This document shows, one piece after another, positions 59,442 to 63,720 of a stretch of 64,000 nt of DNA (position 1 is its first letter; the number at the start of each line of letters is the position of its first letter). Below the pieces are notes generated by a model that worked only from the letters and a program-made list of their open reading frames with translations, made no database searches and was not told the DNA's origin. The DNA is from Sphingomonas sp. (GTDB lineage Bacteria; Pseudomonadota; Alphaproteobacteria; Sphingomonadales; Sphingomonadaceae), in NCBI GenBank assembly GCA_017418975.1, contig JAFOMG010000012.1, forward strand, positions 204,747 through 268,746, given 5' to 3'. The translations under genes and the position numbers were made by a program.

Positions 59442-59831
59442 GAGGCAGCATCGATCGCAGCTTCTGAACCGGAAAGGGGAAGGCGCGGGCTGCCTTCCCC
59501 ACCGAACGGCGCGCCGGAACAACCGGCACGGCGATCACCGATGCGCCGGCAAGCCCTCAAAGCGCCCGATCGTCTTCGATACGGAGATATCCCGCCCCAT
59601 GGCCTCGGCATGCGCGCAATCGCCCCGCCTCGCGCCTGTTCACATTTTTCCAATATATATCAAAACCTTCACAGCACCCCTCATCGTCAAGCCATTATCA
59701 ACCATAATATCGACCGGCGTTTTTCGTCGAATGAAATCGATGTTTGGACGCAATAGATCCTTGCAAACCTTGTTCGTCCGCAACCACACAATTATCGATG
59801 ACAACAACTTCATTGGCATGCGAGTCGATCA
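59442..59831. other. 390-bp non-coding region before the repeat-protein gene
   Basis: The left part holds a hairpin (59476-59500). From about 59640 to the next gene the DNA turns clearly AT-rich (for example CCAATATATATCAAAACC near 59650), unlike the rest of the window. It must contain the promoter of the repeat-protein and oxygenase operon, but I could not pick a convincing -35/-10 pair. No gene is evident. Confidence 0.5.
59476..59500 (+). terminator. Hairpin after the MipA-like gene
   Basis: GGGGAAGGC pairs perfectly with GCCTTCCCC across a seven-base loop, 34 bases past the stop codon. No T tract follows. Confidence 0.5.
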
Positions 59832-60479
59832 ATGGAAAACACTGCGAACAATAGATCCATATTGACGAACCTATTCACAGAATTACTCGACGATGATAGG
59901 GTTCTATCTTCAAGCGAGCGAGGACTGATCACCAATCTACTCAAGAAGGCACGCGAAGAATCTACCGGGGATGCCGCACTCGACGCCGCCGTATCGCAAC
60001 GGCTGATATCCGCGACCATCGGATCGGTGAGCGGGAAGATCGTGAATGCGCTGGCCGATGAGCTGGTCCGCCAGCTGGTGGACGGGCATGGCACCGGTGT
60101 GCATTGGCCCGACACGCATCGGGCGCCGCAGGTGTCGCCCAGCAATCCGGGCAATCCGGAAACGGGCCAGGTGTCGCCGTCCAACCCCGGCAACAACATG
60201 GCGCCGCAAGTGTCGCCGTGGAATCCGGGAAACAATCCCGGAAGCCAGGTGTCGCCGTACAATCCGGGCAATTATCTGCGGTCGCGGGTGCCGCCCGGCC
60301 CGGGCACCCAGGTCTCGCCCACGCCTCCCGGCAGCGACATGGCGCCGCAGGTATCGCCCAGCAACCCGGGCAATCCGGAAACGGGCCAGGTGTCGCCGTC
60401 CAATCCCGGCAACCTCGCCCAGCCGCGGGAGCCCGGCGATGACGCGGTGCCGGGCGCCAAGCGCAAGCCGAAAAACTAG
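59832..60479 (+). CDS. Repeat protein with leader-like N-terminus, candidate oxygenase substrate
   Basis: A 215-residue protein without a signal peptide. Residues 1-90 form a helical, charged region (ILTNLFTELLDDDRVLSSSE, then KIVNALADELVRQLVDG). Residues 100-198 are a tandem array with a strict 13-residue period: units start at 100, 113, 126, 139, 152 (degenerate, cut to 8), 160, 173 and 186, with consensus QVSPxNPGN plus four variable residues. The tail is short and basic (AKRKPKN). It has no cysteine. Four predicted 2-oxoglutarate oxygenases follow directly, so I infer the array is their substrate, at Pro, Asn or Asp. The 5' part of the gene is AT-richer than its neighbours. I do not recognise a family. 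Confidence 0.75.
   Translation: MENTANNRSILTNLFTELLDDDRVLSSSERGLITNLLKKAREESTGDAALDAAVSQRLISATIGSVSGKIVNALADELVRQLVDGHGTGVHWPDTHRAPQVSPSNPGNPETGQVSPSNPGNNMAPQVSPWNPGNNPGSQVSPYNPGNYLRSRVPPGPGTQVSPTPPGSDMAPQVSPSNPGNPETGQVSPSNPGNLAQPREPGDDAVPGAKRKPKN
60129..60425 (+). repeat. Array of 39-bp coding repeats (13 residues each)
   Basis: Eight units in phase, seven full and one shortened to 24 bp. Typical core is QVSPSNPGN; variants have W, Y or TP in place of SN. The block of units 1-2 (NPETG spacer, then the next unit) recurs almost exactly as units 7-8, a sign of recent duplication. Synonymous differences between units show that selection acts on the protein. Confidence 0.85.
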
Positions 60480-60487
60480 CGCCGGAC

Positions 60488-61477
60488 ATGAGGTGCGAAG
60501 TGACTCCGCCCCGGCACGAGGCCGATCTCGGGCGGACAGGCGGGGCGGGTGTGAGCCCGGCCCCGCCAGGAGACCCGTTCTCACTTCACCAGCCCCGCGC
60601 GCCCGGCCTGGGCGCGCCGCCCAGCTATCTGGAGGCGGGGCTGTGGCGCGATCGCCTGCTCATCCGCAACGACACCGCGAGATTGCAGCTGAACCAGGCG
60701 CTTCGCGTCACCGGCGATGAAGTCGTCGTCCCCGATCCCGTCACCGGCATCGAGGCGCGGTTCACCGCGGAAAAGGCCATGCTGGCGCTGATCGGGCGGA
60801 TCTCCACCGATCCGGCGGAAATCGACGGCCTTCCCGATCCGCTGCGGGAGCGGCTGGCGGCGCTGGGCGTGCTGGTCGACGGCGATGCCGGCGCGGCCGC
60901 GCATGCGGCGTGGGAGCGGACGCTCCGTCAGGCCATGCAGGCGTTCCGTGAGGGCGGGCATGCCGAGCTGTCCGGCCTCCTGTGCCCGGCGGTCGTCGCG
61001 TTCCTCCGGCAGCGCTATCGCCACATGGCCCGCCACGCCGCGCTGCCCTATGGCGACCCTCAATGCCCGACCCGCTGGATCGCCCATAATGAAGCGGCGG
61101 CGCGCCCGCTGCATCAGGCGCTCACCCCGATCATGTCCGCGGTCGTCGGCGAGCCGGTCAAGCCGTCCTACCTATATCTCGGCGCATATGCGGAGGGGTC
61201 GACGCTGCCCCGGCATACCGACCGGGAACAATGCGCATTCACCCTGTCGCTGTTGATCGATTACCTGCCCGACATCGAAGGGCCATCGCCCTGGCCCCTG
61301 CATCTCCACCTCGATGGCGATGGCGAGCCCCGGTCGATCCGCCAGCGCCTTGGGCAGGGACTGATCTTCCGCGGCCGGGAAATCGCGCATTCGAGACCCG
61401 CATTGCCCGCCGGGCACATGTCGATCTCGATCTTCTTCCACTTTGTTCCCGAAGACTTTCGCGGGAGGATCGATTGA
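60488..61477 (+). CDS. 2-oxoglutarate/Fe(II) oxygenase with N-terminal winged-helix-like domain
   Basis: A 329-residue protein starting 8 bp after the repeat-protein gene. The C-terminal half is a double-stranded beta-helix: the iron-binding triad is His243 and Asp245 in LPRHTDREQCAFTLSLLIDY and His301 in GREIAHSRPALP, with Arg303 close by. The N-terminal region (about residues 45-135) has LLIRNDTARLQLNQALRV and ARFTAEKAMLALIGRI, ending ALGVLVDGD. It reads like a PqqD-type or winged-helix peptide-binding domain. I infer it recognises the leader of the repeat protein. The domain identity is not proven by sequence inspection. Confidence 0.7.
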   Translation: MRCEVTPPRHEADLGRTGGAGVSPAPPGDPFSLHQPRAPGLGAPPSYLEAGLWRDRLLIRNDTARLQLNQALRVTGDEVVVPDPVTGIEARFTAEKAMLALIGRISTDPAEIDGLPDPLRERLAALGVLVDGDAGAAAHAAWERTLRQAMQAFREGGHAELSGLLCPAVVAFLRQRYRHMARHAALPYGDPQCPTRWIAHNEAAARPLHQALTPIMSAVVGEPVKPSYLYLGAYAEGSTLPRHTDREQCAFTLSLLIDYLPDIEGPSPWPLHLHLDGDGEPRSIRQRLGQGLIFRGREIAHSRPALPAGHMSISIFFHFVPEDFRGRID

Positions 61478-62253
61478 GCGAGCCTGACCTGTCCGCCACG
61501 CTCCAGCGCCACGGCCTTGCGGAGCTGCTGGCCCATCATGCCGCGATCGCATCGGATCTGCCGGACCCCGCCGGCGACAAGGTGGCCGTCGCCGCCGCGC
61601 GCTGGCTGAAGCAATGGGCGGGGGATCCGCGCGCGCGCGCCGCCACGATCGAGGACTGGGCGCATCCGGCGCCCGTGCTCACCTGCGACGAGTTTCTCGG
61701 GCCCGGCGAGATTTCGGCTCTTGTCGATTTCGTCCTGTCGCGGGAAGCGGATTTCGGCGTCGGCACGCTCGTCGGCAACGAGCGGCCCGACATCTATGTC
61801 GATCGCAGCTTCCGCGCGGCCGAGACGCTCTTCGACCTGGGCCCGTTCCTGGCGCTGTTCGAGCGGCGCATCGAACGCTATCTGCCCTTTGTCTGCGACC
61901 ATCTTGGATGGCCGCCGTTCGAGCAGCACGGGTTCGAGTTTCAGCTGACCGCCATCCGCAATGGCGGCTTCTTCCGCCGGCACAATGACAACAGCCATCC
62001 GGCGACCCGGACCCGGCGGCTGACCTTCGTCTTCTATTTCTTCTGCTCGCCGTTGCAGCCGCTTGGCGGTGAGCTGCGCTTCGCGCCCAGGGGAGCGTGG
62101 CGCGGCCCGCTGGCGTTTCCGCCGATCGCGAACCGGATGATATTCTTCGACTCGTCGATCCCGCACGAGGTTCTGCCCGTCCGGGCGCCCACCGACGGGT
62201 TCGGGGCGGCGCGCTTCACGGTGAACGGCTGGATCCATCAGGATGATCGGTGA
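61474..62253 (+). CDS. 2-oxoglutarate/Fe(II) oxygenase, prolyl-hydroxylase-like
   Basis: A 259-residue oxygenase. The TTG start overlaps the stop of the previous gene (TTGA), and GGGAGGA stands four bases upstream. The fold motif is FEFQLTAIRNGGFFRRHNDN with His170 and Asp172, then LTFVFYFFCSPLQPLGGEL, His231 in SSIPHEVLPV and Arg247 in ARFTVNGW, the 2-oxoglutarate-binding position. The C-terminus is of the Piezo-independent P4H/2OG-FeII_Oxy_3 kind. An N-terminal helical stretch of about 90 residues may bind the substrate. It is part of the same operon. Confidence 0.78.
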   Translation: MSEPDLSATLQRHGLAELLAHHAAIASDLPDPAGDKVAVAAARWLKQWAGDPRARAATIEDWAHPAPVLTCDEFLGPGEISALVDFVLSREADFGVGTLVGNERPDIYVDRSFRAAETLFDLGPFLALFERRIERYLPFVCDHLGWPPFEQHGFEFQLTAIRNGGFFRRHNDNSHPATRTRRLTFVFYFFCSPLQPLGGELRFAPRGAWRGPLAFPPIANRMIFFDSSIPHEVLPVRAPTDGFGAARFTVNGWIHQDDR

Positions 62254-62257
62254 CGCC

Positions 62258-63193
62258 ATGGCCGTTCGCGACAAGGCCGCCACCTTCCGGCAGCTGATAG
62301 AGCCGCTGGACATGACGGCCTTCGTCGCCGGTGTCTGGGAGCGGCGCTCCATGGTGTTTCATGGCAGCCCCGAACGCTTCCAGGGGCTCGATCTGGATTT
62401 TGCGGCGTTCACCAGGGCGATCCACCATCTTCCGCCGAACAGCATTCGCGCCAACTCGGTCGAGAGCGACGGCACCGGCCGCTATCCCTATATCGACGCG
62501 GCAGATTGCCGGCATCGCTTCGAGCAGGGGCAGACGATCTGCGTGACCGAGCTCCAGACCTGCGCGCCCAGGCTGCTCGACCTCGCGCGGGACACGCACC
62601 AGGCCCTGGGCCTTGCCGGCACGGTCTGCGTCAACGCCTATCTGTCCCCGGCCGGGCGCGGGTTCGGCCTGCATTTCGACACGCAATCGGTCTTCATCCT
62701 GCAGCTCGAGGGCGAGAAGCACTGGCGCTATGGAGACGGCCCGGCGGTGGCATTTCCACCGGAGGGGATGGACGCCTGCCCCGATGCGGGGCGCCAGCGT
62801 TTCCGCGAGCGATATCCGGCGATCGCGCTGGCGGAACCCGGGGCTAGCGCCTGGCACCAATGCCTGTTGCGGCCGGGCGACGTGCTCTATCTGCCGCCGG
62901 GCACCTGGCACCAGGGCACGGCGGGAGACTATTCGCTGGCGCTGACGCTCACCTGCTGCACCCATGACTTTTCCGCGCTGCTGACGCCGCTGCTGCGGGA
63001 GACGCTGCTGCGGAGCGAGCCATGGCGGCGCAACTTGCCGTGCCGCGCGGCGGCGCAGGACGGCCGAACGCGGGAAGCCTTTATCGCGGATCGTATCGTG
63101 GAATTGCGGCAATGGGCCGAAGACCTGTCTCCCCCCGATCTCGCGCGGCTCTGGGAGGAGCTCGCGCCCGCCGAAGCGCGCGCCCGTCCGTGA
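62258..63193 (+). CDS. JmjC/cupin-type ribosomal-oxygenase-like dioxygenase
   Basis: A 311-residue enzyme of the cupin-4/JmjC group that includes bacterial RoxA. The triad is His139 and Asp141 in FGLHFDTQSVFILQLEGEKH and His218 in LPPGTWHQGTAG. RANSVESDGTGRYPYIDA and the LYLPPG turn are typical. The C-terminal helical stretch (AFIADRIVELRQWAEDL) corresponds to the winged-helix or dimerisation part of RoxA-like proteins. Start choice: ATG at 62258 with GGTGA upstream; an ATG at 62243 overlaps the preceding stop. RoxA enzymes hydroxylate Arg or His residues of proteins; here the substrate is inferred to be the repeat protein. Confidence 0.78.
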   Translation: MAVRDKAATFRQLIEPLDMTAFVAGVWERRSMVFHGSPERFQGLDLDFAAFTRAIHHLPPNSIRANSVESDGTGRYPYIDAADCRHRFEQGQTICVTELQTCAPRLLDLARDTHQALGLAGTVCVNAYLSPAGRGFGLHFDTQSVFILQLEGEKHWRYGDGPAVAFPPEGMDACPDAGRQRFRERYPAIALAEPGASAWHQCLLRPGDVLYLPPGTWHQGTAGDYSLALTLTCCTHDFSALLTPLLRETLLRSEPWRRNLPCRAAAQDGRTREAFIADRIVELRQWAEDLSPPDLARLWEELAPAEARARP

Positions 63194-63720
63194 TCTGCGT
63201 CTCGCCGGGCCTCGTGCCGGATGCCGTCTGCCATGCGCTCATCGGCTGCTTCGCGCGGCATATCCGGCACCTGGGCGGCGCCGACGACCAGCCGGCCTTC
63301 GCCCATCGCGTCCTGCGCCTGGGCCAGCTGAGCGCCGCGGCCCCGGCCGGCGATCGGAGCGTGCGGCAGATGCGCGCCATCCGATGGCTCGCGACCGAGC
63401 GTCTCCGTGACTTCTTCCGCGACCCCGGGATCCATCCCGAGGAAACGCAGATAGTGCGCTGGTCGCCGGGCGACGGACAGCCGCTCCATCTGGACATGAC
63501 CCGGGAAACGACGACCTATGCCGCGATCCTGTATCTCAATGATGACTTTCTCGGCGGCGAGACCTTTTTCGAGAACGGCGCGACGATCCGGCCGCGGACC
63601 GGAACGCTGGTCGGGTTCCACGGCGCATCGCTGCGCCACGGCGTGCGGACGGTGGTGGCGGGCACGCGCCTGACGATGCCGATATGGTTCACGGACCGGG
63701 AGGGCTGCGCGGAGCCGTGA
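63190..63720 (+). CDS. Prolyl-4-hydroxylase-type 2-oxoglutarate/Fe(II) oxygenase
   Basis: A 176-residue oxygenase of the P4H family. The GTG start overlaps the previous stop (GTGA). His100 and Asp102 lie in GQPLHLDMTRETTTYAAILY, followed by LNDDFLGGETFFENGATI, which is the classic P4H stretch, then His150 in LRHGVRTVVAG and Arg160 in RLTMPIWF. It is the last gene of the operon and the best candidate for hydroxylating the prolines of the repeats. The N-terminal part is short (about 80 residues), so the protein is compact. Confidence 0.8.
   Translation: MICVSPGLVPDAVCHALIGCFARHIRHLGGADDQPAFAHRVLRLGQLSAAAPAGDRSVRQMRAIRWLATERLRDFFRDPGIHPEETQIVRWSPGDGQPLHLDMTRETTTYAAILYLNDDFLGGETFFENGATIRPRTGTLVGFHGASLRHGVRTVVAGTRLTMPIWFTDREGCAEP

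Follow-up and report, generated by a model that had tools for sequence, protein, structure and literature searches.

A tandem-repeat protein followed by four 2-oxoglutarate oxygenase genes in Sphingomonas sp.: a candidate peptide-hydroxylation pathway

On what substrate might four adjacent oxygenases act, when the gene directly ahead of them encodes a protein of short repeats? The question is raised by a locus at the end of a 64,000-nucleotide stretch of Sphingomonas sp. DNA (GCA_017418975.1, contig JAFOMG010000012.1; hereafter the window), in which the gene for a repeat protein, P1, is followed by four genes, P2 to P5, for putative 2-oxoglutarate (2OG)/Fe(II) oxygenases (Table 1). We consider it moderately likely that P1–P5 is a pathway like those of ribosomally synthesized and post-translationally modified peptides (RiPPs), with 2OG-dependent hydroxylation of the array as its only linked chemistry. 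P1 would then probably represent a peptide product, modified by hydroxylation, of an undescribed kind. The link between the enzymes and P1 is inferred from relatives: homologues of P2, P3 and P4 occur in peptide-type clusters, and the array shares a motif with precursors found beside P3 homologues, so that a pathway hydroxylating P1 would be the simplest account.

P1 has two parts. The sequence-only reading of the window had described a leader-like N-terminus followed by a 13-residue Pro/Asn-rich array, and this description holds. Residues 96–215 have a best period of 13 with a self-identity of 42% (z 13.5, 200 shuffles), and residues 1–95 are without repeat (z −0.7). QVSP occurs seven times in P1; in 20,000 shuffles of the array it occurred 0.018 times on average and at most 2 times. 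The units start at residues 100, 113, 126, 139, 160, 173 and 186; a further unit, degenerate and 8 residues long, lies at 152. A one-unit peptide of the array is QVSPSNPGNNMAP. Against Pfam, P1 had a sole match at chance level (0.1). A non-repetitive N-region and an array, with genes for modifying enzymes directly after them, make a RiPP layout as far as gene order goes. The G+C content is 0.55–0.56 in positions 59442–60122 of the window (the leader part of P1 and the sequence upstream) and 0.68–0.70 in the array and P2–P5.

The enzymes were also largely as first described, that is, four genes with overlapping or nearly touching ends, an H-x-D...H triad in each product, and three oxygenase subtypes. 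The coordinates of P2–P5 agree with this: P2 and P3 overlap by 4 bases, the GTG start of P5 overlaps the stop of P4, and an alternative ATG for P4 at 62243, upstream of 62258, would give an overlap with P3 too. The triads are invariant among aligned relatives, namely H243/D245/H301 of P2 in 6 sequences, H170/D172/H231 of P3 in 8, H139/D141/H218 of P4 together with K154 in 9, and H100/D102/H150 of P5 in 5. P3 belongs to 2OG-FeII_Oxy_3 (PF13640, 2.7e-15) and matches the P. putida prolyl 4-hydroxylase (P4H) in the PDB (4iw3, E 0.0043). P5 has sub-threshold Pfam matches only; among solved structures, its best match is Prolyl 3-hydroxylase 1 (1.1e-6). By triad and similarity, P3 and P5 are therefore predicted to be prolyl-hydroxylase-like. 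P4 belongs to JmjC_2 (PF08007, 1.5e-22), with YxbC and a putative asparaginyl hydroxylase as its best solved relatives; family, triad and lysine together mark it as a predicted enzyme of the JmjC_2/ribosomal oxygenase-like type.

P2 had zero matches to Pfam and NCBIfam families. Its predicted model (pLDDT, the predicted local distance difference test, 70.8; alignment depth three sequences; residues 1–64 of low confidence) has a double-stranded beta-helix (DSBH) fold, whose best structural matches are HalB, SnoN, P. putida P4H and PHD2. This predicted fold places P2 among the 2OG oxygenases, and with its extra N-domain it supplies the third subtype. In the model this N-domain consists of four short strands (66–93) and then three helices (96–125). 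The RiPP recognition element (RRE) has three strands followed by three helices, according to PMC12710340. The likeness of the P2 N-domain to an RRE is suggestive only. As a separate observation, residues 15–46 of P2 (window 60530–60625), in the low-confidence tail, resemble the P1 repeat (GVSPAPPGD), and 23 of 2000 shuffles score equally high; this stretch may be a pseudo-substrate or chance.

Some relatives of P2 and P3 point to peptides. Strong P2 homologues (E <= 1e-30) outside the own genome were found in one of 251 congeneric genomes (G110, 6.5e-42) and in two of 337 class-level genomes (G876, 9e-35; G600, the same as UR115, 2.6e-34); these sets, and the 295 congeneric genomes used for P1, are drawn samples and not complete sets. 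All three adjoin a P3 homologue (G110 at L036, UR115 at L060, G876 at L136), and each P2–P3 pair adjoins genes that, from reading and from comparison with annotated records, were named AsnB, PqqD-like, HPr-kinase-like and sulfotransferase. For the UR115 AsnB, the match to the lasso cyclase model is 3.9e-59, under the curated cutoff; the G110 kinase-like protein is under the cutoff for Hpr_kinase_C, and the G110 ATP-grasp protein matches PF14397 at 4.3e-24. A class-level P3 search gave 17 matches besides the own protein, and in five of the 11 loci examined (L060, L134, L135, L136 and L139) the P3 homologue lies inside an AsnB/PqqD-type cluster. Among plasmid records with P3 relatives, four of six are in RiPP-type clusters, of which UR115 and Tistrella (G818/L135) repeat class-level loci. 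The other two are Eleftheria terrae, where the P3-like gene precedes a sulfotransferase–P2-like fusion in what is not obviously a RiPP cluster, and Gloeocapsa, where the P3 relative is near a nonribosomal peptide synthetase (NRPS) gene. P3 homologues occur in a lasso cluster of A. oryzae and a LanM/Nif11 (lanthipeptide) cluster of Pseudanabaena. Where they are peptide-linked, the P2 and P3 homologues accompany short precursors. Two side observations concern plasmids. The E. terrae fusion (L056:10633-12759) has not only the P3-like gene but also a gene for an Asp/Asn hydroxylase beside it, and Azospirillum plasmids of two strains (L057:5669-7358, L201:13119-14815) carry three consecutive genes with the annotation 'tail fiber protein' beside lasso-like and oxygenase genes.

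Weaker P2 relatives were also followed. Counting the own one, 59 of the 251 congeneric genomes had a match, and 20 loci were fetched. All of these except G110 (19/20) were rejected, since each reads as a 2OG gene standing alone among unrelated genes with P3-, P4- and P5-like genes unmatched, the P2-like gene itself being missed by the gene caller in L039, L044 and L051. Identity (27–36%) fails to split weak from strong homologues, but the E-value does (1.4e-13 or weaker vs 6.5e-42). Sericytochromatia homologues were likewise set aside, as no linked oxygenase or repeat gene was seen in their open reading frame (ORF) lists. Their N-terminal extensions resemble extra copies of the N-domain by eye (L003:2079-3545, L004:7185-8663).

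A motif joins P1 to the precursors beside P3 homologues. Precursor-like peptides next to HPr-kinase-like/AsnB genes were picked by a W-x-P leader pattern, and [SD]-P-x(2,3)-G ends the core in seven of eight precursors, at six of seven P3-bearing lasso-like loci, with A. oryzae as the exception. The forms are SPGTG, SPATG, SPNTG, DPSFG, SPSPTG (twice) and SPSPSG. The motif is present in all seven P1 units (SPSNPG four times, SPWNPG, SPYNPG and SPTPPG), and 5,000 shuffles of the P1 array gave a mean of 0.88 and a maximum of 5. None of the five control precursors, from lasso-like loci where no P3-like gene matched, carries it. The motif common to P1 units and P3-linked cores may be taken as a lead and not as proof.

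Some P4 relatives keep company with repeat proteins of other types than P1. An order-level search matched 75 of 296 genomes, own included, and at the 19 loci fetched ten of 300 called genes passed a repeat test, all of them at most three genes from the P4-like gene. Eight of these loci have repeat proteins of a TDSD...GRG type, and at a ninth, L093, the same kind of protein is under the threshold. One more locus with a gene that passed, L090, has another repeat protein, described below. A pattern scan over order- and class-level loci found TDSD-type ORFs in 13 of 39 P4 loci and none in the other 26. The 13 loci are exactly one clade of the P4 tree (13/13 members; Shimodaira–Hasegawa-like approximate likelihood-ratio test, SH-aLRT, 82), and by reading each TDSD protein has a twin-arginine-like N-terminus. 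A literature search on such pairs of TDSD-GRG repeat protein and JmjC enzyme turned up nothing, and we know of no name or description for them. Two other class-level genes passed the repeat test, one beside a TDSD gene (L178:5379-6731) and one not adjacent (L194:13363-14340).

Other P4 relatives stand in peptide-type clusters. In G431 (L090:174-5415), a 463-aa protein of LQDLVALLDQQQQQGGGKA repeats is followed by a TIGR04267 aKG-HExxH peptide hydroxylase and further on by a SagB-type dehydrogenase, a JmjC gene and a trypsin-like protease. In G548 (L089:8261-11020), a 103-aa Gly/Tyr/Asn-rich peptide, an XyeB/YhhB-like radical SAM/SPASM enzyme and JmjC_2 lie in a row. In G347 (L103:3534-11007), an exporter whose N-terminus reads as C39-type, an ATP-grasp peptide maturase, a JmjC protein and a P5-like 2OG oxygenase occur together; this is possibly a graspetide cluster with two oxygenases, and this P4 locus is the sole peptide-type cluster with a P5-like gene (34%, 1e-7). 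P4 homologues are also in the AsnB clusters L101 and L135. In Azospirillum sp. B510 (L065:3943-17481), JmjC_2 comes directly after six consecutive NHLP-like precursor genes, of which the locus has eight, and exporter genes are present too; the one precursor checked matches TIGR03793 at 4.6e-23. In a tree of 46 rows, P4 falls outside a clade of 17 RoxA-like genes that has full support. P4 pairs with the B510 protein (SH-aLRT 93), and since both are long branches this grouping is unsure.

Table 1. Positions of P1–P5 in the window, and of the TDSD-type repeat proteins at other loci
Feature	Position	Strand	Description
P1	59832-60479	+	putative precursor/substrate, 215 aa; leader-like N-region (~residues 1-97) and tandem array
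Array inside P1	60129-60425	+	residues 100-198; seven QVSPxNPGN-type units, period 13, plus one degenerate unit
P2	60488-61477	+	putative 2OG/Fe(II) oxygenase; predicted N-domain at residues 65-131 (RRE-like topology) and DSBH domain; HTD...H
P3	61474-62253	+	prolyl-4-hydroxylase-like 2OG/Fe(II) oxygenase, PF13640; HND...H
P4	62258-63193	+	JmjC_2/cupin-type oxygenase, PF08007; nearest in tree: JmjC of an NHLP-type locus
P5	63190-63720	+	small prolyl-hydroxylase-like 2OG/Fe(II) oxygenase; HLD...H
TDSD-x(n)-GRG protein beside JmjC_2	L091:8860-10806, L092, L093, L095, L096, L097, L099, L100, L108		Sphingomonadales/other Alphaproteobacteria
TDSD-x(n)-GRG protein beside JmjC_2 (rest)	L178, L183:8094-9834, L184, L189		Sphingomonadales/other Alphaproteobacteria

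The surroundings set the five genes apart. The upstream neighbour is a MipA gene by family search, and the window stops at the contig end. The operon is also present in Sphingomonas sp. CBMAI 2297 (L002), where the downstream genes, named by reading their sequences, are presumably a HAD-type phosphatase, a fragment of an RHS gene and the flagellar genes fliR/flhB/flhA. On this basis P1–P5 is taken as a putative single unit. No linked ATP-grasp gene of the corallotide-type graspetide kind was found among the operon proteins (Pfam/NCBIfam) or seen by eye in the flank ORF lists, and the same searches gave no AsnB-type cyclase, leader protease or PqqD-type RRE as in lasso clusters. Elsewhere, the own genome has two further JmjC_2 genes and two C39-peptidase exporter loci (L209:5676-11327, L210:5039-9653). 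Small proteins resembling double-glycine peptides were noticed at both exporter loci.

P1 itself is rare. It occurs in 2 of the 295 congeneric genomes, both of the same species, and had zero matches in plasmid records. In CBMAI 2297, P2 is 99% identical and all five genes align gap-free; the second genome with P1 (G279, P1 98%) is probably the same strain. All four amino-acid changes in P1 between strains are at residues 6–28, and the array is unchanged. Co-occurrence of the enzymes with QVSPxNPG-type proteins across sphingomonads, which had been proposed as a check, has no comparison set because P1 is confined to one species in this sample.

Several results weigh against reading P1–P5 as a peptide-hydroxylation pathway. 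An independent operon with an array and four oxygenases was not found in the genomes searched. Searched alone against 350,542 PDB chains, the P2 N-domain gave RiPP enzymes as its top three matches (MibB, TbtB and the TbiB1–leader complex; MibB and TbtB carry RRE domains), which speaks for the pathway, but at a non-significant E of 0.29–0.38 and with the aligned part of MibB/TbtB not visible. A profile of the N-domain had zero matches among nine PqqD-like proteins. PF05402 (PqqD) has no match in the whole own genome, which would also fit P2 bringing its own recognition domain. Six of the 11 class-level P3 loci lie outside RiPP clusters (L133, L137, L138, L140, L141 and L142), and at the Pseudanabaena locus, which bears a P3 homologue, neither of the two Nif11 peptides has the motif. 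The contrast of 7/8 with 0/5 precursors has a Fisher p of 0.0047, or 0.015 when counted by locus, for a motif picked post hoc at P3 loci that fall into two related groups. Two precursor-like peptides that had been set aside because other clusters are nearer (L135:7055-7246, L136:13136-13318) lack the motif, and including both gives 7/10 and a p of 0.026. The TDSD repeat ORF is at only 4 of 20 class-level P4 loci, and at the 16 without it the readable neighbours are mostly ordinary genes; among these, a neighbour of the sulfotransferase type occurs at L190, the contig of L179 is short, and at L191 the gene caller returned zero genes, leaving the neighbours unread. P5 relatives were rejected as evidence of a peptide role, since the neighbours at all six fetched loci look like housekeeping genes, such as dnaX, lon, glutamine synthetase and clpB (at L160 the P5-like gene itself was uncalled). 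Furthermore, protease, exporter and cyclase genes were not seen near the operon when the ORF lists were read by eye, as the sequence-only reading had said of the cluster. Its proposal of a RiPP-like system therefore stands in part: the company of some P2, P3 and P4 homologues and the shared motif argue for it.

The missing processing genes fit another explanation, namely that P1 is a mature hydroxyproline-rich structural or surface protein whose hydroxylation stiffens the array or alters its assembly, as in collagen-like proteins or corallotide, with no cleavage. This is also consistent with the prolyl-hydroxylase-like character of P3 and P5, with the pairing of twin-arginine-type repeat proteins and P4-like JmjC enzymes, and with the collagen-like biophysics of corallotide (PMC13097080). 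However, the P1 N-terminus, read by eye and not with a signal-peptide predictor, is not of the twin-arginine type, and P2 and P3 relatives in lasso-like loci are linked to short leader/core precursors. We regard this explanation as unlikely. Less likely again is that P1 is an accidental neighbour and that the enzymes have another substrate, which could be a small molecule, an amino acid in free form or some housekeeping protein. 2OG oxygenases often use small molecules, HalB and other halogenases of amino acids are among the matches to the P2 fold, and the genes near P5 relatives and the Gloeocapsa P3 relative point the same way. Only 8 bases separate P1 from P2, however, three of the four enzymes have peptide-linked relatives in part of their loci, and the array has the motif of P3-linked lasso-like precursors. 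Finally, the locus might be a RiPP cluster in decay or remodelling, without a product since the loss of cyclase, PqqD and protease genes. This would explain why the AsnB, PqqD-like and HPr-kinase-like partners of P2/P3 relatives are absent here and PqqD from the genome, but it is very improbable, because neither strain has a broken frame in any of the five genes, the triads are intact and the array is identical, although the differences are too few for a firm selection test.

If P1–P5 is a peptide-hydroxylation pathway, it may work as follows. P1, an open gene, would be made on the ribosome, and its N-terminal ~97 residues would serve as a leader docking on the RRE-like N-domain of P2. Judging from fold and relatives, P2 and P3 would hydroxylate the array at S-P-x-(N/P)-P-G, probably on proline, and P4 and P5 would act on other residues, of which asparagine and proline are the likeliest. 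The outcome would be a polyhydroxylated repeat polypeptide, with leader release and export, if any, carried out by genes elsewhere in the genome. A bolder proposal, which we hold only tentatively, is a new RiPP class matured by oxygenation alone, with an array as core, four 2OG oxygenases that span three fold types and are dedicated to it, and the RRE-like domain of P2 as guide. Under that tentative proposal, proline, asparagine and possibly other residues would be decorated, and bacteria would have their own counterpart of hydroxyproline-rich proteins. If the peptide-hydroxylation reading is right, several 2OG oxygenases would suffice to define a peptide maturation pathway without a ring-forming enzyme, and repeat substrates would become connected with tailoring enzymes of lasso type and with recognition of the RRE type. 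The locus would also be a compact set for asking how several hydroxylases share one array, and it would point to the wider JmjC–repeat-protein pairs in Alphaproteobacteria (13 loci).

How does P1–P5 compare with known systems? In a literature search that covered few subscription journals, no system combining a repeat precursor and several 2OG oxygenases in the absence of a cyclase was recognisable from titles and abstract openings. The statement that no such system is described nevertheless needs qualifying. RRE–JmjC fusions have an RRE-like domain on an iron/2OG-type oxygenase, with bacterial homologues reported in RiPP-like contexts, but according to PMC12710340 it is the JmjC protein (PF08007) that carries the domain, whereas here the candidate is P2, with its prolyl-hydroxylase-like fold. 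In the TDSD...GRG pairs, a repeat protein likewise adjoins a JmjC_2 oxygenase related to P4; they differ in their acidic/Gly-Arg repeats, twin-arginine-type N-terminus and single ~400-aa oxygenase, and in forming a clade separate from P4. The lasso-like loci L036, L060 and L136 share adjacent P2 and P3 homologues and a core ending in S-P-x-x-G, but they have a short single-core precursor with AsnB, PqqD-like, HPr-kinase-like and sulfotransferase genes, and P4- and P5-like genes were unmatched there. In biphenomycin biosynthesis, the JmjC-type/cupin-like oxygenases BipG/BpmG and PbsQ hydroxylate a residue of a RiPP precursor, which further qualifies the statement. Their target is ornithine derived from arginine, within MNIO/radical-SAM pathways, and the passages covered from the two reports do not mention a tandem array (PMC12707348, PMC12257519). 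The chief qualification comes from corallotide, a graspetide of group 15 from the cor cluster of Corallococcus. Its large precursor has five repeated motifs, each hydroxylated by CorC, a 2OG-Fe(II) oxygenase of PF13640, the family of P3 (PMC13097080). There, an ATP-grasp graspetide synthetase acts first, and the cyclised lysine is hydroxylated by one oxygenase; the paper contains neither the word JmjC nor cupin. The P1–P5 locus differs in having four oxygenases and no linked ATP-grasp. As a repeat precursor hydroxylated by a 2OG enzyme, corallotide is the nearest precedent for P1–P5.

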